Assembly (NCBI RefSeq): GCF_022655595.1
Contig: NZ_CP093379.1
Location: 289,001-353,000 of the forward strand
DNA from: Ignatzschineria rhizosphaerae
GTDB lineage: Bacteria > Pseudomonadota > Gammaproteobacteria > Cardiobacteriales > Wohlfahrtiimonadaceae
Reading direction: 5' to 3'
Length of the DNA: 64,000 nucleotides
Position 1 is the stretch's first letter. Every line of letters starts with the position of its first letter. The notes beneath the pieces are model-generated. The model ran no database searches, was not told the DNA's origin, and was given only the letters and a program-made list of their open reading frames with translations. Made by a program: the position numbers and the translations under genes. This document shows, piece after piece, positions 4,774 to 47,895 of this stretch.

Positions 4774-4918
4774 CCATCCGTTTTATAAATTGATAGATGT
4801 GGAAAGATCGGAAGGGAGCCATAAAATCTCCACACTTAATTAGGCTAATAAATCATTGTGAAATGGTCTGTCACTAAAATAAAAATAATTAAATTAAAAT
4901 TGAAGGAGGGGAGAGGAT

Positions 4919-6238
4919 ATGGACATTTTATTTAATCCAGTTCTTGTTTCTGTTGTTTTGATGTGTGTGCTGTGTCTTAGTAACGTGAATATTCTTTTAG
5001 CGATTATGATTTCAGCTATCGCAGGTGGGATGATTGGTGGTTTTGAGATAAGTAAAACGATGAGTCTTCTTATCGATGGCATGGGCGAGCAAGCTAATAC
5101 TGCTTTAAGTTATGTCTTATTAGGGGCGCTTGCCGTAGGGATTGCACAAACAGGTTTAACAACCATTTTATCTTTGAAGTTAGAAAAAATTGTGGGAAAA
5201 CATGCCAAAATATTTCTACTAATTTTAGCGGGTATTGCCTGTTTCTCCCAGAACTTAATACCTGTTCACATTGCATTTATTCCCATTTTAATTCCGCCAT
5301 TATTAAAGATGATGAATGATCTTAAAATTGATCGAAGGGCTGCGGCTTGCTGTTTAACTTTTGGTTTAAAAGCACCTTATGTCGCATTACCGGTGGGATT
5401 TGGTTTAATCTTCCACGGCATTATTGCCGATAATATGACGTTAAATGGGATGGCTGTTGAAAGCTCTGAGGTCTGGAAATATGTCTGGGTTCCGGCTTTG
5501 AGTATGGTGGTGGGATTATTGATTGCGGTGTTTATTAGTTATCGAAGAAAACGCAGTTATAGAGATCTACCCATTGTTACAGGGAAAGAGGGAGAGTTGG
5601 CAGTAACAGATAGATTTACGCTTCAGCATCTTGGGGCAATCTTAGGAGCTGTTAGTGCTTTTGCGGTGCAATTGATGACAGGATCTTTACCATTAGGTGC
5701 ACTAATTGGCCTAGGTATTATGGTTTTATTTAAAGCGATCCCTTTTAAAACTCAAGATAGTACACTGCTAGAAGGTATTAGAATCATGGGCTTTATTGCT
5801 TTTGTGATGTTAGTTGCTTCAGGTTATGCCCATGTACTTCGTGAAACAGGAGGCGTTGATGCTATTGTGCAAGCTTCTAATAGTTTAGTGGGCGGTAGCC
5901 AGTTCTGGGGCGCCGTGATGATGCTATTAATTGGATTATTAGTCACAATGGGGATAGGAACTTCTTTTGGCACAATTCCCATTATTGCCACCATTTACGT
6001 GCCATTTAGTATTGCCTTAGGCTTTTCTGTCGGCGCTACAACTATGCTAATTGTCGTGGCAGCGGCGTTAGGAGATGCAGGTTCCCCTGCATCAGATTCA
6101 ACATTAGGGCCAACGGCTGGATTAAATGCAGATGGACAGCATAACCATATTTGGGATACCTGCGTACCAACCTTCCTGCACTATAATATTCCTCTGATTA
6201 TCTCTGGGGTATTAGCGGCAATGTTCTTGTTAAATTGA
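4919..6238 (+). CDS. NhaC-like secondary transporter, probable histidine permease
   Basis: A 439-residue inner-membrane protein with about 11-12 hydrophobic segments, related to the Na+/H+ antiporter NhaC/YuiF group. Conserved features include LIPVHIAFIPILIPPLL in the first half and the late GDAGSPASDSTLGPTAGLNADGQHNH block (only part quoted here), which is typical of this family. GGAGGGGAGAGGAT precedes the ATG. It follows hutH by 145 bp and ends before a terminator, so it closes the hut cluster. From this position I infer uptake of histidine or urocanate, probably sodium- or proton-coupled; the sequence alone does not prove the substrate. Confidence 0.75.
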   Translation: MDILFNPVLVSVVLMCVLCLSNVNILLAIMISAIAGGMIGGFEISKTMSLLIDGMGEQANTALSYVLLGALAVGIAQTGLTTILSLKLEKIVGKHAKIFLLILAGIACFSQNLIPVHIAFIPILIPPLLKMMNDLKIDRRAAACCLTFGLKAPYVALPVGFGLIFHGIIADNMTLNGMAVESSEVWKYVWVPALSMVVGLLIAVFISYRRKRSYRDLPIVTGKEGELAVTDRFTLQHLGAILGAVSAFAVQLMTGSLPLGALIGLGIMVLFKAIPFKTQDSTLLEGIRIMGFIAFVMLVASGYAHVLRETGGVDAIVQASNSLVGGSQFWGAVMMLLIGLLVTMGIGTSFGTIPIIATIYVPFSIALGFSVGATTMLIVVAAALGDAGSPASDSTLGPTAGLNADGQHNHIWDTCVPTFLHYNIPLIISGVLAAMFLLN

Positions 6239-6275
6239 TCATCAAAGTTGATAGATAACTCTATAATCTTTACAG

Positions 6276-6299
6276 CGCCCGATACTATTATCGGGCGTT
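6276..6299 (+). terminator. Terminator after the hut cluster
   Basis: A 9-bp perfect stem (CGCCCGATA / TATCGGGCG) with a 4-nt loop, followed by TTATTG. It lies between two convergent genes and may serve both strands. Confidence 0.7.
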
Positions 6300-40248: not shown

Positions 40249-42324
40249 GTGTCAAAGTCAATAACATTGACCGCTCTCCAAGAGTGGCTACAAAGTAAAG
40301 AAGATTCGTGGAAGCCGGAATATTTCGCTGCCTGTATTAAATATCAGGATCATCCACTATATAAAATCGCACTTGAAACGGCATACTATCTAGATCAACT
40401 AGATATTGAGGTAATGCCGCAAGTCGCCTTGATTCTCTTTATTTTAGGCGTTTCAGTTGAAGAACAGCCAGAAAGCACTCGTAAATTTATTCAATATCTT
40501 GGCGTTGTGAATCATTTAACCTCAGGATCGATTTCGCACGAGAAATCTCCAGAAACGCTGCGTAAGATGTTTTTAGCCTTTGCAGAAGATGTAAGGGTCA
40601 TTGTTGTCATGCTTGCTTATCAGGTGATTGTGATGCGTAATGCGCGCGATTCACAAGAAGATAAGCAGCGTGCCATTGCACAAAATACCAATACCATTTT
40701 TGCACCGATTGCCAATAGGCTAGGGCTCTCAGGAATTAAGTGGGAGCTTGAAGATTATGCTTTTCGTTTTTTAGAGCCTGATTTTTATCGCGAGATAGCA
40801 TCAAAGCTTGATGGCAAGCGTAAGATGCGTGAGGAGTATATTGAAAATGTCATGGCAACAATTAAGCGTTTGTTGCTTGAGCATCAAATTAAGGCGGATG
40901 TTTCTGGGCGTGTGAAGCATATTTATAGTATTGCGCGGAAGATGCGCCAGAAGAATTTAAGTTTTGAGCAATTATACGATATTCGAGCCGTGCGGATATT
41001 AGTCGATAGCACAGCAGATTGTTACGCTGTTTTAGGCATTATCCATGAATTATGGGTACCGATTCCAAGAGAGTTTGATGATTATATTGCCAATCCTAAA
41101 CCTAATGGCTATCAATCATTACATACGGTGGTTTTAGCGCCAGGAGATTTAGCCTTAGAAGTACAGATTCGAACGCACAAAATGCACAATGATGCTGAAA
41201 TGGGCGTTGCTGCGCATTGGAAGTATAAGGAAGGGCGAGGAACTTCTATTGATCAGGCGGATTTAAATTGGCTACGTGATCACTTAAATAGAGCCCTTGA
41301 AGAGGGTGAAGAACAGATCACTGAAGAGTCGATCTTTAATGAGAATGTCTATGTGATGACTCCAGCAGGTGAGCCTTTAGAGCTTATTGCCGGATCAACC
41401 CCTTTAGACTTTGCTTATAAAATTCATACAGGTCTAGGTAATCGTTGCCGAGGCGCGAAGGTCAATGGGGCAATTGTGTCATTGACTTATGTGCTTCAAA
41501 ATCGTGATGTGGTAGAAATTTTAACAGGGAAAGTCCCAAATCCTAGTCGGGATTGGATGTCACCCCATTTAGGGTATACAGGCTCAAGTCGTACCCGTTC
41601 TAAAATTCGGGCATGGTTTAGAGCGCAAGAGATTGAGAGTAATCTTCAAGCTGGAAAGGCAATGGTGGAAAAGGAGCTTTCGCGCTTAAATGTCCGTTTA
41701 AGTGATGAAGAGTTAAGACGATTAGCCAGTAAACTTCATTGTACAAGTATCAATGATCTTTACGCCAATATTGGTTCAGGGGATATCACTATTGCGCAGC
41801 TTATCGCAAGGTTGCCAGGAGAAAAACCCAAAAATAATTTTGATCCAGATTTAATGGTGCGCCCGCAAACGAAAAAAGCCCAAAGCGGCATTCAAGTGAA
41901 AGGGATGGGGAAATTATTAACCTCAATGGCGACTTGTTGTAAACCTGCACCACCAGATCTTATTGGGGGATATATTACGATCAATCGCGGTGTGACGATT
42001 CATCGCCTTAACTGTGTTAATTACCAAAATATGCTGGATCAAAATCCGGAAAGAGGCATAGATGTTGATTGGGGATCGAGTGATGAGCGTCTTGTTGAAG
42101 CGGATATTCATGTGATTGCCTATGCGAATGTGGATCTTCTTCAAGAGATTAGTCAATTAGTATCGGCTGAGCATTTGAAGATAACGAATATGAATATGAA
42201 GCAAGAGAGCGCAGATACAAGATCAATTAGTTTTACGTTAGAGATTAATCATGTAGATCAATTAAGCCGTCTTTTGGACCGAATTAATCAGATTCCCGCA
42301 GTATTAAAGGCTTATCGAAAATAA
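40249..42324 (+). CDS. relA: GTP pyrophosphokinase RelA (monofunctional)
   Basis: A 691-residue stringent-response alarmone synthetase. The N-terminal hydrolase region lacks the HDxxED motif of SpoT, so it should not degrade (p)ppGpp. The synthetase has LSFEQLYDIRAVRILVDS and EFDDYIANPKPNGYQSLHTV (EFDD-type loop, as in RelA). TGS (ENVYVMTPAGEPLEL), zinc-finger-like (CCKPAPPDLIGGYI) and ACT domains follow. It starts at GTG 40249 behind GGAGAAGTAGAT. It senses uncharged tRNA on ribosomes. Confidence 0.94.
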   Translation: MSKSITLTALQEWLQSKEDSWKPEYFAACIKYQDHPLYKIALETAYYLDQLDIEVMPQVALILFILGVSVEEQPESTRKFIQYLGVVNHLTSGSISHEKSPETLRKMFLAFAEDVRVIVVMLAYQVIVMRNARDSQEDKQRAIAQNTNTIFAPIANRLGLSGIKWELEDYAFRFLEPDFYREIASKLDGKRKMREEYIENVMATIKRLLLEHQIKADVSGRVKHIYSIARKMRQKNLSFEQLYDIRAVRILVDSTADCYAVLGIIHELWVPIPREFDDYIANPKPNGYQSLHTVVLAPGDLALEVQIRTHKMHNDAEMGVAAHWKYKEGRGTSIDQADLNWLRDHLNRALEEGEEQITEESIFNENVYVMTPAGEPLELIAGSTPLDFAYKIHTGLGNRCRGAKVNGAIVSLTYVLQNRDVVEILTGKVPNPSRDWMSPHLGYTGSSRTRSKIRAWFRAQEIESNLQAGKAMVEKELSRLNVRLSDEELRRLASKLHCTSINDLYANIGSGDITIAQLIARLPGEKPKNNFDPDLMVRPQTKKAQSGIQVKGMGKLLTSMATCCKPAPPDLIGGYITINRGVTIHRLNCVNYQNMLDQNPERGIDVDWGSSDERLVEADIHVIAYANVDLLQEISQLVSAEHLKITNMNMKQESADTRSISFTLEINHVDQLSRLLDRINQIPAVLKAYRK

Positions 42325-42439
42325 ATATTTAATAAAATAACAGCTTGAATTGTCTAAATAATTAGCGATGATTTTTGTTTTAAATACCGATCTTTTGAGG
42401 ATGTTTTAAAAATTGACATAAAAGTGTATAAAAATTACT

Positions 42440-42466
42440 AAGCCTACCAATAAGGTAGGCTTTTTT
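42440..42466 (+). terminator. Terminator after relA
   Basis: A 9-bp stem (AAGCCTACC / GGTAGGCTT) with a short loop and six T residues. Confidence 0.9.
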
Positions 42467-42730
42467 GATGTCATCTATTTTTTTTAATGAAATACTGATA
42501 TCGCTTGATAAATCTAGCTTTAAAAAGGTTTTGTATGATTTTATATAGCGTGTTTAAACCTTTTTAAAAGGTTTATTTGATAAAAAAAATGTTAATTCAT
42601 ATTGTTTTTATATGCTATGTATGTTTTATTATAGGAGGTGTTGCGCTTTGCACGAAAAGATTGAATAATTGAGATCGTATCCTGCCACAAGAAGTAGGCG
42701 CTTTGTCACAGAGTAAGGAGTTGAAAGAGA

Positions 42731-42853
42731 ATGTGTAAAATGATGAAAAACCCAATGATACAGATGATCATGTGCTGTTGCATTTTGACACGTCAAAACC
42801 CAATTTCATTACTAAAAGTCTATAAACGGAGAAAACCCAGTGATCCAATTTGA
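42731..42853 (+). CDS. Met/Cys-rich leader peptide overlapping the metN start
   Basis: A 40-codon ORF beginning MCKMMKNPMIQMIMCCC, with 6 Met and 4 Cys in the first 17 codons and none after. It has a strong Shine-Dalgarno, AAGGAG at 42715-42720, 10 nt before the ATG. Its TGA lies 14 nt inside metN in another frame, so ribosomes reading it must cross the metN ribosome site (CGGAG, 42827-42831) and GTG (42840). No intrinsic terminator lies between, which argues for translational rather than transcriptional attenuation. Stalling at Met or Cys codons under starvation would change access to the metN start. Function is inferred from composition and position. Confidence 0.65.
   Translation: MCKMMKNPMIQMIMCCCILTRQNPISLLKVYKRRKPSDPI
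42783..42798 (+). promoter_or_regulatory. Hairpin right after the Met/Cys codons of the leader
   Basis: TTTTGA and TCAAAA arms with a CACG loop, immediately following the Cys codons of the leader ORF. The decamer AAAACCCAAT occurs at 42747 and 42795, and AAAACCCAGT at 42832, just before and over the metN GTG. These could form alternative structures or binding sites. The remaining gap (42467-42714) is AT-rich, with the direct repeat GCGCTTTG and no other clear feature. Confidence 0.4.
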
Positions 42854-43922
42854 ACATATCTATAAAACTTATCTACGCAACGGTGTTGAAACTGAAGCGT
42901 TAAAAGATGTTAGTCTGCATATTGAAAAAGGCGATATCTTTGGAGTGATCGGCTATAGTGGTGCCGGAAAAAGTACATTAATTCGTCTTGTGAATGATAT
43001 TGAAAGTCCTACAAAAGGCAAAGTGATTGTTGATGGACGAGATCTTTCAACGTATACGCCAAAAGAGCTCCGTTTAGCGAAAAAAAATATCGGTATGATC
43101 TTCCAGCACTTTAATTTGCTTGAGACTAAAACTGTTGCGGAAAATATCGCATTACCACTCACCTTAAGTGGTAATCATTCAAAAGCAGAGATTAATCGCC
43201 GAGTGGACGAGCTTTTACAGTTTGTTGAGTTACCTGATAAAAAGAATTCTTATCCCCGTGAGCTCTCGGGCGGGCAAAAACAGCGTATTGGTATTGCGCG
43301 TGCTTTAGTAAATGACCCTAAGATTCTCCTTTGTGATGAAGCAACTTCGGCATTAGATCCCCAAACAACCATCTCAATTTTAGATCTTTTAAAGAAGATC
43401 AATAAAGAGCAAGGCGTGACGATTATGATGGTTACGCACCAGATGGAAGTGGTGGAATATCTTTGTAATAAAGTCGCCGTAATGGAAAAAGGCGAAGTAA
43501 TTGAAAGTGGTAAAACTATTGATGTCTTTGGGAATCCAGAAAAAACAACGACGAAAAGCTTTGTCCGTACAGTGATTGGGGATTCTATTCCGGAGCGCGT
43601 GTTACAAAACCTTGATGACCCAACATTAACCGATATCTATCGCTTTGAGTTTTTAGGACGCTCGGCGCAGGAACCTGTGATTAATGAGCTAATTCTTAAG
43701 GGCGATGTGGTGATTAATATTCTCTTTGCCAACATGATTGAGATCGAGGGCAATATTTTAGGTAGCACCTTTGTACAAATGACAGGAGAGAGCGCCAAAG
43801 TAGAAGAAGCGATTGCATTTCTACGTTTCCATGGCGTAAGAGTGACACATGAAGGATCGAAACACTCGATTAATGTGACACAAAAAGAGTTAAATCTTGA
43901 TTCTGTGAAAAGAGGAGCATAA
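42840..43922 (+). CDS. metN: Methionine ABC importer ATP-binding protein
   Basis: A 360-residue ATPase: Walker A GYSGAGKST, Q-loop FQHFNLLETKTVAENIALPL, signature LSGGQKQRIGIARAL, Walker B ILLCDEATSALDP, and a C-terminal NIL domain (residues about 265-345) that binds methionine and inhibits transport. It powers uptake of D/L-methionine through MetI with MetQ lipoproteins. It starts at GTG 42840 behind CGGAG. The start lies inside the leader-peptide ORF, and metI follows 2 bases after the stop. Confidence 0.95.
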   Translation: MIQFEHIYKTYLRNGVETEALKDVSLHIEKGDIFGVIGYSGAGKSTLIRLVNDIESPTKGKVIVDGRDLSTYTPKELRLAKKNIGMIFQHFNLLETKTVAENIALPLTLSGNHSKAEINRRVDELLQFVELPDKKNSYPRELSGGQKQRIGIARALVNDPKILLCDEATSALDPQTTISILDLLKKINKEQGVTIMMVTHQMEVVEYLCNKVAVMEKGEVIESGKTIDVFGNPEKTTTKSFVRTVIGDSIPERVLQNLDDPTLTDIYRFEFLGRSAQEPVINELILKGDVVINILFANMIEIEGNILGSTFVQMTGESAKVEEAIAFLRFHGVRVTHEGSKHSINVTQKELNLDSVKRGA

Positions 43923-43924
43923 TC

Positions 43925-44599
43925 ATGTTAGATTGGTATACAGAAACATTTAAAACCCAAGTGACATTGGAACAATTCCTCCAAGCAGGTTGGGAAACGT
44001 TTGTCATGGTAGGCGTTTCGCTCGTGATCGGGACAATTTTAGGTTCAGTCATTGGCATTTTATTGGTTTTAACACGCCCAGGTGGGATTGAAGAGTCTTC
44101 ATTTTTTTATAAAGTATTAAATACGGTTGTGAATATCGTACGCTCACTTCCCTTTATTATCTTAATGGTGGCAATCATTCCTTTTACTAGAATGGTAGTG
44201 GGAACATCGATTGGAACCTCTGCGGCAATTGTGCCTTTAATTATCTATATCTCCCCCTTTATTGGGCGTTTGGTAGAGAGTTCACTTTTAGAAGTGGATC
44301 ATGGGATTGTAGAAGCTGCTAACTCAATGGGCGCTACAACATTTCAGATTATTTGGAAGTTCTTATTACCAGAAGCACGTGGCTCACTTATCTTGAACTT
44401 CACAACAGCAACCATTGGATTAGTGGGTGCGACAGCAATGGCTGGTGCTGTTGGCGGTGGTGGTATTGGGGATTTAGCCCTTAACTATGGTTATCAGCGA
44501 TTTGATAGTGTCGCGATGTTCTATACGGTTGTGCTGCTTGTGGTGATTGTTCAAGCGATTCAGTCACTCGGTAACTTCCTTGCTAAACGTTATCATTAA
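43925..44599 (+). CDS. metI: Methionine ABC importer permease
   Basis: A 224-residue permease with five to six membrane helices and the ABC contact loop EAANSMGATTFQIIWKFLLP. It pairs with MetN in the inner membrane. Two bases separate the genes and GAGGAGC lies just upstream, so they are co-translated. It precedes a 15-bp stem-loop and then an acyl-CoA dehydrogenase-like gene. Confidence 0.94.
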   Translation: MLDWYTETFKTQVTLEQFLQAGWETFVMVGVSLVIGTILGSVIGILLVLTRPGGIEESSFFYKVLNTVVNIVRSLPFIILMVAIIPFTRMVVGTSIGTSAAIVPLIIYISPFIGRLVESSLLEVDHGIVEAANSMGATTFQIIWKFLLPEARGSLILNFTTATIGLVGATAMAGAVGGGGIGDLALNYGYQRFDSVAMFYTVVLLVVIVQAIQSLGNFLAKRYH

Positions 44600-44657: not shown

Positions 44658-44741
44658 ATCCCATATCAATTTCAGCCCTAAATCCACTAAGTAAGATGCG
44701 TGAAATCACGTGTCCTTCTATTATTCGTCCTGGAGAAAGTC

Positions 44742-45902
44742 ATGAGTCATGTTATTAATTTAGTAGAAATGAGTTCTAAAGCCCGTCTTGATGCGATTCA
44801 AGAGATTGCAAAAGCATTTAAAGCACGTGCTTATCAGCATGATGTTGCAGGAACATTTCCATTAGAAAATTATGCTGATTTAAGAGCTGTTAATTTCCCG
44901 GCATTAACGGTTCCCAAAGTTTTAGGGGGCGCAGGGATCTCTTTAGAAGAGATGTTAAGACTGCAAGCAGAAATTGCTAAAAATGATGGCTCAACAGGGC
45001 TTGCGATCGGTTGGCATATGGGAATTAGTAAACATCTTGGGGAGACTAATAATTGGGATCCTGCACTTTATGCAGAGTTTGCTAAAGATGTTATCGCAAA
45101 AGGGGCGCTCATTAATAATGCCGCGTCAGAGCCGGCAACAGGGAGCCCAACGCGAGGCGGTCGCCCAGAAACGACAGCGGTGAAGAGTGCTAATGGCTGG
45201 GCTTTAAATGGTCGTAAGACATTTACGACATTATCGCCTGTTTTAGATTATTTTGCGGTGAGCGCCGGCATCGATGGTTCAGATCAGGTTGCAAGTTTTC
45301 TGGTAAAAAGAGAGTTAAGCGGCGTTTCAATTGAAGAGACATGGGATTCAATTGCGATGAGCGCTACAGGGAGTCATGATCTGGTATTAGAGAATGTTGA
45401 GATTAGAAATGAGGATCTCGCGCAATACTTAATCCCAGGTAAGAAAGATCCCCAAGGATGGCTTCTTCATATTCCGGCAGTCTATTTTGGGATTGCCACA
45501 GGCGCATTTGAAGAAGCGGTCGATTTTGCCAATAGTTACTCTTCAAATGCGATGAAAGGGGGAACCGTCGGGCAGTTCCCAACGGTACAGCAAAAAATCG
45601 GGCAGATTCGAGTAAAACTCATGGAGATGGAGTATTTTCTCTTTGGTGTTGCGAAAAAATGGGATGAGGCAAATGCTGAGGAACGATTGGAGATGGGGGA
45701 TGAGTTAAGCGCTGTTAAAGTTGCGATCGTCAATCATGCTTTAGAAGTCGTTGATCTTGCCATGCGAATTGTTGGCGCAAGAAGCTTATCTCAAAAGCAT
45801 CCATTATCAAGAGCTTATCGAGATGTTCGTGCAGGATTACATAATCCGCCGATGGAAGATATGGTTTACACCAATTTAGCGAAAAGTGTTTTAACACTTT
45901 AA
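44742..45902 (+). CDS. Acyl-CoA dehydrogenase-family flavoprotein in the met locus
   Basis: A 386-residue protein from ATG 44742 (GGAGAAAGTC upstream). Three-part ACAD fold: N-terminal helices with VPKVLGGAGISLEEMLRLQA, middle strands (INNAASEPATGSPTRGG, then GWALNGRKTFTTL), and a C-terminal helical bundle (FPTVQQKIGQIRVKLMEMEY). Relatives near sulfur-uptake genes (YdbM, SfnC type) are thought to act on sulfur compounds with reduced flavin rather than on acyl-CoA. Position between metI and metQ supports a sulfur-salvage role. The substrate is unknown. Confidence 0.75.
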   Translation: MSHVINLVEMSSKARLDAIQEIAKAFKARAYQHDVAGTFPLENYADLRAVNFPALTVPKVLGGAGISLEEMLRLQAEIAKNDGSTGLAIGWHMGISKHLGETNNWDPALYAEFAKDVIAKGALINNAASEPATGSPTRGGRPETTAVKSANGWALNGRKTFTTLSPVLDYFAVSAGIDGSDQVASFLVKRELSGVSIEETWDSIAMSATGSHDLVLENVEIRNEDLAQYLIPGKKDPQGWLLHIPAVYFGIATGAFEEAVDFANSYSSNAMKGGTVGQFPTVQQKIGQIRVKLMEMEYFLFGVAKKWDEANAEERLEMGDELSAVKVAIVNHALEVVDLAMRIVGARSLSQKHPLSRAYRDVRAGLHNPPMEDMVYTNLAKSVLTL

Positions 45903-46126: not shown

Positions 46127-47008
46127 ATGAATATCACAAAAAAGATGGGAAAGGGATCACTCAGGCAATTATTATCAAAAATGCCGGCAATGTTATCGGT
46201 ATTTAAAATAGGATTACTTTTTATTGCCGGAATGATCCTTGCTGCTTGTAGTGAGGAGCAAGGTGAGAAAAAAGAGATTGTCTTTGGTTTAGGCCCTTCT
46301 ATTTATGTGAATCAAGTTGAAGGGGGAATTATTCCGCTTTTAGAGCAGAAAGGTTATAAGGTTTCTATTAAGACTTTCTCTCAAAACTCTATGATTCCAC
46401 CGGCATTAAAAGAAGGTGCGGTAGATGTTTCTGTCCATATTAGTACGGCAAATCTTCAGGAGATGAATCGTCGGTTAGGCGGAGATGCGATGATGGTTTG
46501 GGCTGATACACCAAGCGCGCCGCAAACTATTCGCTCTTTAAGACATCAGAGTATTGATGATATCCGTGATGGTATGACCATTGCGATTCCATCAGATCCT
46601 GTGAGCTCTGAAAGAGCAGCAAGATTACTCGAATCAGTGGGCTGGATTGAGCTAGCCCCTGAAATTGATGTTTCAACGTTTCACGTCAATGAGATTAAGC
46701 CAGGGAGCGTTACTCCTAAAATTGTGGAGATGGAATCGGCATTAATGCTACGTGCTTTACAAGATATCGATTTTGCGGTGGTGAATGGTAACTTTGTCAC
46801 AAATGCCGGAGAGCGTATTCAAGATGGATTAGCGATTGAAGATTCTCCAGAAGAGCATCTTGTAAAAGTCGCTATTTTAGAGAAAAACCAACATGAAACA
46901 TGGGCGAAAGATATTAAAGAGGCTTATGAGTCAAAAGAATTTGAAGTATTTATTAAAAATGACCCGATTTATGAGGGATTAATATTCCCGAAATCATGGT
47001 CTAAATAG
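46127..47008 (+). CDS. metQ: MetQ/NlpA methionine-binding lipoprotein 1
   Basis: A 293-residue lipoprotein (lipobox ILAAC after an unusually long 41-residue leader). The NlpA domain includes IVFGLGPSIYVNQVEGGIIP, LKEGAVDVSVHISTANLQEM, GMTIAIPSDPVSSERAARLL and DIDFAVVNGNFV, matching MetQ ligand-pocket segments. A ribosome site (GGATGGAAGGGA) precedes the ATG. It has a paralogue 59 bp downstream that differs in the pocket region (ADTPSAPQTIRS against ADTASAPQSLRS). Confidence 0.88.
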   Translation: MNITKKMGKGSLRQLLSKMPAMLSVFKIGLLFIAGMILAACSEEQGEKKEIVFGLGPSIYVNQVEGGIIPLLEQKGYKVSIKTFSQNSMIPPALKEGAVDVSVHISTANLQEMNRRLGGDAMMVWADTPSAPQTIRSLRHQSIDDIRDGMTIAIPSDPVSSERAARLLESVGWIELAPEIDVSTFHVNEIKPGSVTPKIVEMESALMLRALQDIDFAVVNGNFVTNAGERIQDGLAIEDSPEEHLVKVAILEKNQHETWAKDIKEAYESKEFEVFIKNDPIYEGLIFPKSWSK

Positions 47009-47067
47009 ATCTAACTATTGCAAACAGGACCAGTAAAACTGGCAAAAAAGTTAAGGAGACTTTTATC

Positions 47068-47895
47068 ATGCAATTATTAAAACAATGGACACACTCTTTT
47101 AAAGTTATCTCTCTGATGGCAATAACGCTACTAATTGCAGCTTGTGGTGAGGGTAAAGATTCTGATAAAAAGATTGTCTTTGGTTTTGGCCCATCAACAT
47201 ATGCTGAGCAATTTGAGAAGGGAATTCGTCCTATTCTTGAGGATCAAGGTTATGAAGTTGTGGTAAAAATCTTATCGCAAAATATGCAAATCAACCCCGC
47301 TTTAAAAGATGGTTCGATTGATGTCGCAGGGCATCAAAGCATCGCTTATATGGAAGAAATGAATAAAGAGTTAAGTATGAATATGGTGAAACTTGCAGAC
47401 ACCGCAAGCGCGCCGCAATCGCTTCGTAGCACAAAACATCAATCTCTAGACGATGTAAAAGCCGGCATGACCGTGGCAATCCCGAATGATCCAGTCAATG
47501 CTGAACGTGCAGCAAGAATCTTAGAGAGCATCGGTTGGGTTGAAGTGACAAATGAAGAAGTTTCCCGCTTTAGTGAGAGAGATATTATCTCTTTAAATGG
47601 CATAAAAGTTCTATTATTAGATCCAGCCCAAGGTTTAAGAATTTTAGAAGATGTCGATTTTGCAGTGATTAATGGAAACTATGTTGCCAATGCCGGTCTT
47701 AAAATGACAGATGCTTTAGTTGTGGAAGAGACGCCAGAAGAGCATGTGGTGATGATCTCTATTCGTGGCGAAGATCAAGATAAACAGTGGGCGAAGGATT
47801 TAAAAGCAGCCTATGAGTCTGATGCTTTTGCAAGCTATATTCAAAATGAATCTCTTTATGATGGTTTTATTTTACCAACAGCCTGGCAGAAGTAA
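47068..47895 (+). CDS. metQ: MetQ/NlpA methionine-binding lipoprotein 2
   Basis: A 275-residue lipoprotein (lipobox LIAAC) and tandem paralogue of the previous gene: IVFGFGPSTYAEQFEKGIRP, LKDGSIDVAGHQSIAYMEEM, GMTVAIPNDPVNAERAARIL and DVDFAVINGNYV align segment by segment. A strong AAGGAG precedes it. Two receptors for one MetNI pump may widen substrate range (methionine, methionine sulfoxide, derivatives) or affinity. A terminator ends the cluster. Confidence 0.9.
   Translation: MQLLKQWTHSFKVISLMAITLLIAACGEGKDSDKKIVFGFGPSTYAEQFEKGIRPILEDQGYEVVVKILSQNMQINPALKDGSIDVAGHQSIAYMEEMNKELSMNMVKLADTASAPQSLRSTKHQSLDDVKAGMTVAIPNDPVNAERAARILESIGWVEVTNEEVSRFSERDIISLNGIKVLLLDPAQGLRILEDVDFAVINGNYVANAGLKMTDALVVEETPEEHVVMISIRGEDQDKQWAKDLKAAYESDAFASYIQNESLYDGFILPTAWQK

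Follow-up and report, generated by a model that had tools for sequence, protein, structure and literature searches.

The window (the whole stretch of 64,000 nucleotides analysed here) carries a metN-like ABC ATPase gene and a metI-like permease gene, followed by an oxidoreductase gene and two MetQ/NlpA-family lipoprotein genes (Table 1). The metN, metI and following cluster genes score under the curated NCBIfam cut-offs (MetI only just). Therefore, "methionine" is a family-level label here and the substrate is unproven; our guess is that it is some sulfur compound. The two lipoprotein genes (46127-47895) lie side by side and have diverged, and perhaps they serve two ligands for one MetNI. Frames related to the SfnB/acyl-CoA-dehydrogenase-like gene are also found 3' of metI in Wohlfahrtiimonas populi (L050), where the oxidoreductase gene is broken into two open frames (4804-6293) and is perhaps a decayed gene.

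Upstream of metN lies a short ORF, preceded by a ribosome site of its own, that begins with a segment rich in Met and Cys codons. The earlier note had described an AAGGAG followed by an ORF with 6 Met and 4 Cys in 17 codons and none thereafter, and re-reading gave an exact match: codons 18-40 contain zero Met and zero Cys. Reading also confirmed that the GGAG and the GTG start of metN lie inside this leader ORF, whose TGA (42851-42853) is 14 nt into metN. A RelA/SpoT-like gene (40249-42324) precedes the leader. The sole plus-strand terminator-like hairpin in 42280-42960 is located at 42440-42462, 3' of the RelA/SpoT-like gene and 5' of the leader.

Table 1. Coordinates of the leader, the genes and the associated elements in the window
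Feature	Position	Strand	Description	Basis
Candidate sigma-70 promoter	42641-42669	+	TTGCGC-N17-AATAAT; recurs in genus loci	
Shine-Dalgarno AAGGAG of leader	42715-42720	+	10 nt 5' of ATG	direct reading
Met/Cys leader ORF	42731-42853	+	40 codons, MCKMMKNPMIQMIMCCCILTRQNPISLLKVYKRRKPSDPI	reading, simulation, conservation
Met/Cys segment, putatively regulatory	42731-42781	+	codons 1-17, 6 Met and 4 Cys	reading, comparison
Spacer	42782-42839	+	C 0.22, G 0.10; leader frame open throughout	
Weak AU hairpin	42783-42798	+	probably incidental	folding versus shuffles, reading of L031
metN ribosome site GGAG	42828-42831	+	within leader ORF	direct reading
metN-like ABC ATPase gene	42840-43922	+	GTG start	TIGR02314, 370.1 bits (cut-off 499.7)
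metI-like permease gene	43925-44599	+		NF008049, 211.4 bits (cut-off 212)
Acyl-CoA dehydrogenase/SfnB-like oxidoreductase gene	44700-45902	+	same cluster	family-profile match
MetQ/NlpA-family lipoprotein gene	46127-47008	+		profile match
Second MetQ/NlpA-family lipoprotein gene	47068-47895	+		profile match

With the candidate promoter, the leader would have a 5' UTR some 55 nt long and the AAGGAG before the ATG, and transcription probably starts near 42676. Among the 9 genus loci read, 5 carry the same element 5' of the leader (L001, L031, L002, L003, L005), and L004 carries a variant of it. An automated promoter scan did not include the element in its list, and its promoter count equalled that of shuffles (4 vs 3.9).

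The Met/Cys content was also compared with that of other ORF starts with at least 12 codons on both strands of the 64-kb window. At least 7 Met/Cys in the first 17 residues were observed only for the leader start (10) and for its own two internal in-frame ATGs (8 and 7). No ORF start with at least 9 was obtained in any of 60 first-order Markov simulated windows.

Conservation of the leader upstream of metN

The leader was followed through the family of Wohlfahrtiimonas (Ignatzschineriaceae, Cardiobacteriales, Gammaproteobacteria), represented by 18 genomes. Orthologous metN was found in 17 of them (G010, 80% complete, is without it), and the sequence 5' of it was read in each of the 17. The earlier note had expected the ORF and its Met/Cys codons to be kept upstream of homologous metN genes. 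This expectation held for 15 of the 17 orthologous loci and for none of the metN paralogues (second metN) in the same genomes (0/17). The two loci missing it, L007 and L008, have no comparable leader, only MMNHQRDSVLNMCRAEFHKM, which did not exceed shuffles. When each locus was compared with 400 shuffles, 13 of the 17 reached 0.005 or less; the short leaders of L014 and L016 reached 0.045 and 0.0525.

The leader peptides begin with MNRSIMMMCCCSMCCCAM.. in L010 and L011, MQMLMSMMCCCS.. in L012 and L013, and MKKLMSMMCCCEM.. in L015 and L017, and read MKNLMTMMCC in L014 and L016. Within the window's genus (L001-L006, L031) they are highly dissimilar and have 38 to 73 residues, with Met and Cys clusters. 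Met mostly comes before Cys in these genus leaders; in L002 and L005 the two are mixed and the Cys codons are separated, without a run. Runs of Cys codons are CCC in L001, L031, L010-L013, L015 and L017, and CC in L003, L004, L006, L014 and L016.

Pairwise identities were calculated with the leader taken up to its last Cys (for L014/L016, up to the stop codon). For L012/L015, the identity was 91% in the leader, 48% in the spacer and 76% in metN; the 60 nt preceding the leader were 58% identical. The corresponding values for leader, spacer and metN were 88%, 54% and 80% for L014/L015, 100%, 73% and 84% for L015/L017, and 100%, 83% and 85% for L014/L016. For L015/L017 and L014/L016, conservation extends to the 60 nt preceding the leader (93% and 97%, respectively), and therefore the entire promoter-leader block has been kept there. 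The pair L003/L004 has metN 99% identical and the leader just 54%, with Met and Cys clusters in both. Similarly, L001/L031 has 84% in metN (625 nt) and 65% in the leader, with a 15-nt gap, and the clusters are kept in each. Because the leaders diverge yet keep their Met and Cys clusters, the Met/Cys content outlives residue identity, which is a mark of regulatory codons. L004/L006 is the opposite case (metN 86%, leader 99%), which we read as an exchange of the upstream region.

These sequence comparisons showed that a predicted Met/Cys-rich short ORF, usually Met then Cys, is kept 5' of this metN in most of the family while the remainder of the leader drifts. The two leaderless orthologues and the shortness of the ORFs could point to chance, or to an untranslated AUG/UGY-rich tract. 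The Markov simulation and the shuffles speak against this explanation, and in several pairs the leader segment is better conserved than metN; we regard it as the most improbable of all those considered. We conclude that the leader is real, conserved and very probably regulatory, and that the mechanism proposed below is plausible.

Leader frame, RNA folding and proposed control of metN

The leader frame reads across the metN start in 10 of the 12 distinct loci analysed (without L006, L011 and L013, near copies here of L004, L010 and L012). The expected number was 3.7, giving P 0.00014 with kinship ignored, a value that is too small because the loci are related. The other two frames of those ten loci are open across the start in 7 of 20 cases. 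Relative to the metN start, the leader stops are located at +4, +8, +14, +26 and +38, and at -55 in L014/L016. In L002-L006 the stop (+4) overlaps the metN start in a GTGA.

The earlier note had proposed that scarcity stalls ribosomes and exposes the metN start. This proposal is the best fit to the architecture, and what carries it are arguments from frame and folding. A shortage of charged Met-tRNA or Cys-tRNA would halt ribosomes within the Met/Cys segment, some 50-90 nt 5' of metN. The metN start stretch would be left free, and translation could begin from metN's own ribosome site. When Met and Cys are plentiful, leader ribosomes would continue in the overlapping frame across the ribosome site and start of metN and hinder initiation. 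In L014/L016, whose leader ends right after the Cys codons, the Met/Cys codons would pair with the metN site in a helix that a stalled ribosome would disrupt. Under both designs a scarcity of Met or Cys would raise metN, and this sign of the response is one that we infer.

Leader ribosomes could also reinitiate at metN, which would make the leader an enhancer and let Met/Cys shortage lower metN. The GTGA overlap of L002-L006 is also typical of such translational coupling, so the sign would be the opposite if coupling operates, and the leader frame is open across the metN start as coupling would allow. Coupling needs a stop near the start, and elsewhere the stops are at +8, +14, +26, +38 and -55. 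Stops at +8 to +38 or -55 from a start are far from the reinitiation optimum. The spread of stops from +4 to +38 is why occlusion by crossing ribosomes is favoured over coupling. Moreover, genus loci possess a GGAG 5' of metN, a shortage that switches off a nutrient transporter makes little sense, and the Met/Cys enrichment would be left unexplained. We consider coupling unlikely.

RNA structure was examined as well. Folding of 42670-42880 revealed nothing above shuffles (z +1.07; equally or more stable folds in 173 of 200). The hairpin which that note placed after the Cys codons is present, but it is weak: the 32-nt piece has -4.5 kcal/mol (z -1.56), 17 of 200 shuffles were as good, and direct reading did not find it in L031, the locus with the nearest MetN (97%). 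By our own criteria, no terminator-like hairpin was found between the leader start and metN +80 in any of 15 loci, and attenuation by an intrinsic terminator of the his/trp type was rejected for this reason. In the his/trp/leu-type transcription attenuators of Proteobacteria, the leader codons fit the function of the operon and are kept despite drift. The window leader is similar in that its codons are cognate to the family-level function of its operon and kept against drift, and different in having neither a terminator-like hairpin nor an unusual structure.

Known methionine regulators were looked for as well. Neither the window nor any of the 7 family metN loci scanned gave a riboswitch or T-box covariance-model match; the sole other Rfam match in the scanned loci was to a miRNA family (E 0.58), distant from the leader and attributable to chance. 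MetJ was absent from all 18 family genomes, and the E. coli control was positive. Five of the 18 genomes have metE, and each of the four metE upstream regions read (L246-L249) contains an S-box (SAM-I, RF00162). metE was rejected as a leader target, since the 4 of 5 loci read each have an S-box instead. In the sister family f3, SAM-II-like matches were seen 5' of metN in 3 of 10 loci scanned (L020, L021, L023), with scores of 24.8-28.2 bits, below the gathering threshold of 36.

The accessibility of the metN ribosome site was calculated for 14 loci (without L011, a near copy of L010). Modelled stalling lowered the cost of opening the site in 8 loci and raised it in 6, among them the window's own (from 3.5 to 5.2). 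The two highest native costs were those of L014 and L016 (8.3 and 12.0 kcal/mol), which fell to 3.6 and 2.3 with a ribosome halted at the leader end (stop codon); the native value was reached by 0.05 and 0.02 of 60 shuffles, respectively, fractions that are uncorrected for the 14 loci tested. L014/L016 are the only loci whose opening cost lies above nearly all shuffles, and there the Met/Cys codons can base-pair with the metN site. The minimum-energy folds of six g2 loci pair the leader with the metN site, and four of them (not L014/L016) were not beyond shuffles. For the duplex energy between the Met/Cys codons and the metN site, L014 was the only outlier (z -2.7, -3.0) and 13 of the 14 loci were within 2 sd; in the cross matrix, leaders often paired better with the metN site of other species than with their own. 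Pairing of codons and ribosome site was rejected as a general mechanism, as L014 alone of 14 stands out by duplex energy.

In translational attenuation of the erm/cat type, a leader ribosome stalled by a drug signal frees the downstream ribosome site. A stalled ribosome on the metN leader would free the downstream site in the same way. Unlike erm/cat, sequestration above shuffles is found only in L014/L016, and the signal would be amino-acid shortage.

Without a terminator-like hairpin, ribosomes translating the leader might control Rho-dependent transcription attenuation. In each of the 10 loci with a long leader, the spacer contains more C than G (C 0.16-0.28, G 0.09-0.17; raw composition, no background). 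As far as the accessible part of the source goes, mycobacterial poly-Cys leaders before cys operons likewise have no conserved terminator hairpins, and Rho has been proposed for them (PMC1262725). An upstream-stalled ribosome would bare the spacer, so this explanation predicts termination on shortage, and the short-leader spacers of two loci are not C-rich (0.10 and 0.12). We give Rho the same low probability as coupling.

Stalling that opens metN is our preferred explanation. The metNI operon probably has a ribosome-mediated attenuator in which the leader serves as the sensor, giving more transporter on Met/Cys shortage. Against this model, 2 of the 17 orthologues (L007, L008) are leaderless and most loci have no folding support. 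In the more specific, and more tentative, form, the attenuator may be terminator-free: run-on leader ribosomes would shut the metN start and Met/Cys stalling would open it, with a pairing variant in sister species. Read in this way, a lineage that has no MetJ might sense amino acids by ribosome traffic and not through RNA hairpins, a suggestion that we make with equal reserve.

Related leaders and precedents

Further leaders were searched for in the 18 family genomes with the patterns ATGTGYTGYTGY and ATGATGTGYTGY; among the loci read, only metN and a thiosulfate gene in g4 were convincing by eye. The second leader, MATQNVQKTIVSTTTFNVRAAMCMCCCSMMMCC, has an AGGAG before its ATG and lies about 245 nt 5' of a YeeE/YedE-like gene that is followed by a TusA-like gene. 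The names of both genes are taken from presumed similarity. The leader occurs in two g4 genomes (L173 / L179, L180), at 2 of 11 such genes, and the other 9 are without it. YeeE (TsuA) imports thiosulfate, according to the accessible part of the source (PMC11073785). By eye, an ATAT/GTATG-rich stretch (e.g. TATATG..TAAGTATGTTTTAT) was seen in the window at 42600-42640 and also 5' of several metN (L002-L017) and tsuA-like (L181-L189) genes; it is possibly a shared operator of both operons.

A Met/Cys cluster might also act through a metal. Such clusters can bind Cu(I), and uORFs of the DUF2946/CruR type are copper-related; the leader peptide could bind copper in this manner and control the operon. 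Both targets found resemble sulfur-uptake genes, and the number and spacing of Met and Cys differ widely among the leaders. Metal binding appears less probable still than coupling or Rho.

For comparison outside the family, 79 metN relatives were analysed (L050 left out). Within 350 nt, an upstream ORF with 5 or more Met/Cys among 14 codons was found in 4 of the 79 (L035, L072, L104, L107), and a score of 5 within 240 nt in 2 (L066, L104). In 100 shuffles each, 0.01 was reached by 2 of the 79 (L104 and one lower-scoring locus). In this control, 4 of the 79 matches begin without a start codon, and L062 has just 128 nt upstream. L066 and L107 were inspected and were not convincing; the ORF upstream in L104 looks like a real leader.

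L104 comes from Parasutterella secunda (Sutterellaceae, Betaproteobacteria). The 61 genomes of that family yielded 14 metN loci above threshold, 13 of them readable. In 5 of these 13 (L250, the L104 locus, and L253-L256), the leader has an invariant end, MRMCMMTMVL, and a variable N-terminal part; L258 has the related sequence RMCMMSRIF. The leader lies about 200-310 nt 5' of metN and is followed by conserved stem-loops, GGTGCTC/GGAGCACC and ATCGTTCG/CGAACGAT, the latter with both sides changed in L255 (by reading). Matching GACCTTC/GAAGGTC stretches are present too. No Rfam family matched at these loci, and the leader with its stem-loops is possibly an undescribed Met attenuator. This result suggested that Met/Cys leaders have been recruited separately at metN in another class. 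About 150-250 nt 5' of metN in L259-L261, short ORFs ending in YCRSCLMRPAL or similar were noticed by eye, and another Cys/Met leader is possible there.

The earlier note suggested that a ribosome-stalling Met/Cys leader overlapping its target gene in a gammaproteobacterium would be a new mode of control, and the literature did not support this, as the mode has a precedent. In Streptomyces lividans, the leader peptide metL (MSTTSDRTPATEATTTPGARCMCRRMCAF) contains Met and Cys codons and lies 5' of metNIQ without a typical Rho-independent terminator, as far as the accessible part of the report describes it (PMC8079986). It resembles our leader in being a short ORF with Met and Cys before a metN operon and in the missing typical terminator. 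It differs in being actinobacterial, on a leaderless transcript and predicted from RNA-seq; the accessible part mentions no overlap with metN, and its authors stress methionines and threonines (PMC8079986). The accessible part of a second source describes poly-Cys leaders 5' of the cys operons of Mycobacterium and Propionibacterium and 5' of cbs of Bifidobacterium (PMC1262725). Like the window leader, they are short, contain Cys codons, belong to sulfur genes and lack a terminator; they differ, by the same partial source, in being leaderless and having Cys runs without a Met cluster (PMC1262725). Against these, the window leader combines Met and Cys, has a Shine-Dalgarno sequence, overlaps the downstream gene and belongs to Gammaproteobacteria. 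A response of poly-Cys leaders to cysteine is reportedly claimed in the title of Canestrari 2020.

Because of metL and the poly-Cys leaders, sensing of sulfur amino acids by a leader peptide is already known, within what the accessible parts of those reports state. Our literature search, mostly of open-access texts, found no Met leader peptide reported in Proteobacteria. What appears to be new here, as a variant, is a proteobacterial Met-plus-Cys leader that overlaps its target gene. The predicted ORF has the general features of a leader-peptide attenuator: it precedes the operon, has a ribosome site to itself and keeps its cognate codons (15/17). Judged from sequence, this suggests that the cell senses sulfur amino acid shortage via the ribosome itself.

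The familiar modes of sulfur regulation in Proteobacteria are MetJ and SAM riboswitches. If the proposed mechanism is true, sensing by a Met/Cys leader peptide would be added to them, and a single family would rely on an S-box at metE and on a leader peptide at the transporter genes. Overlap without a terminator would be a simple and testable form of attenuation by ribosome occlusion. Since they are so short, Met/Cys leader ORFs may be under-annotated, as the leaders of the Parasutterella type and of the thiosulfate-transporter-like genes also suggest.
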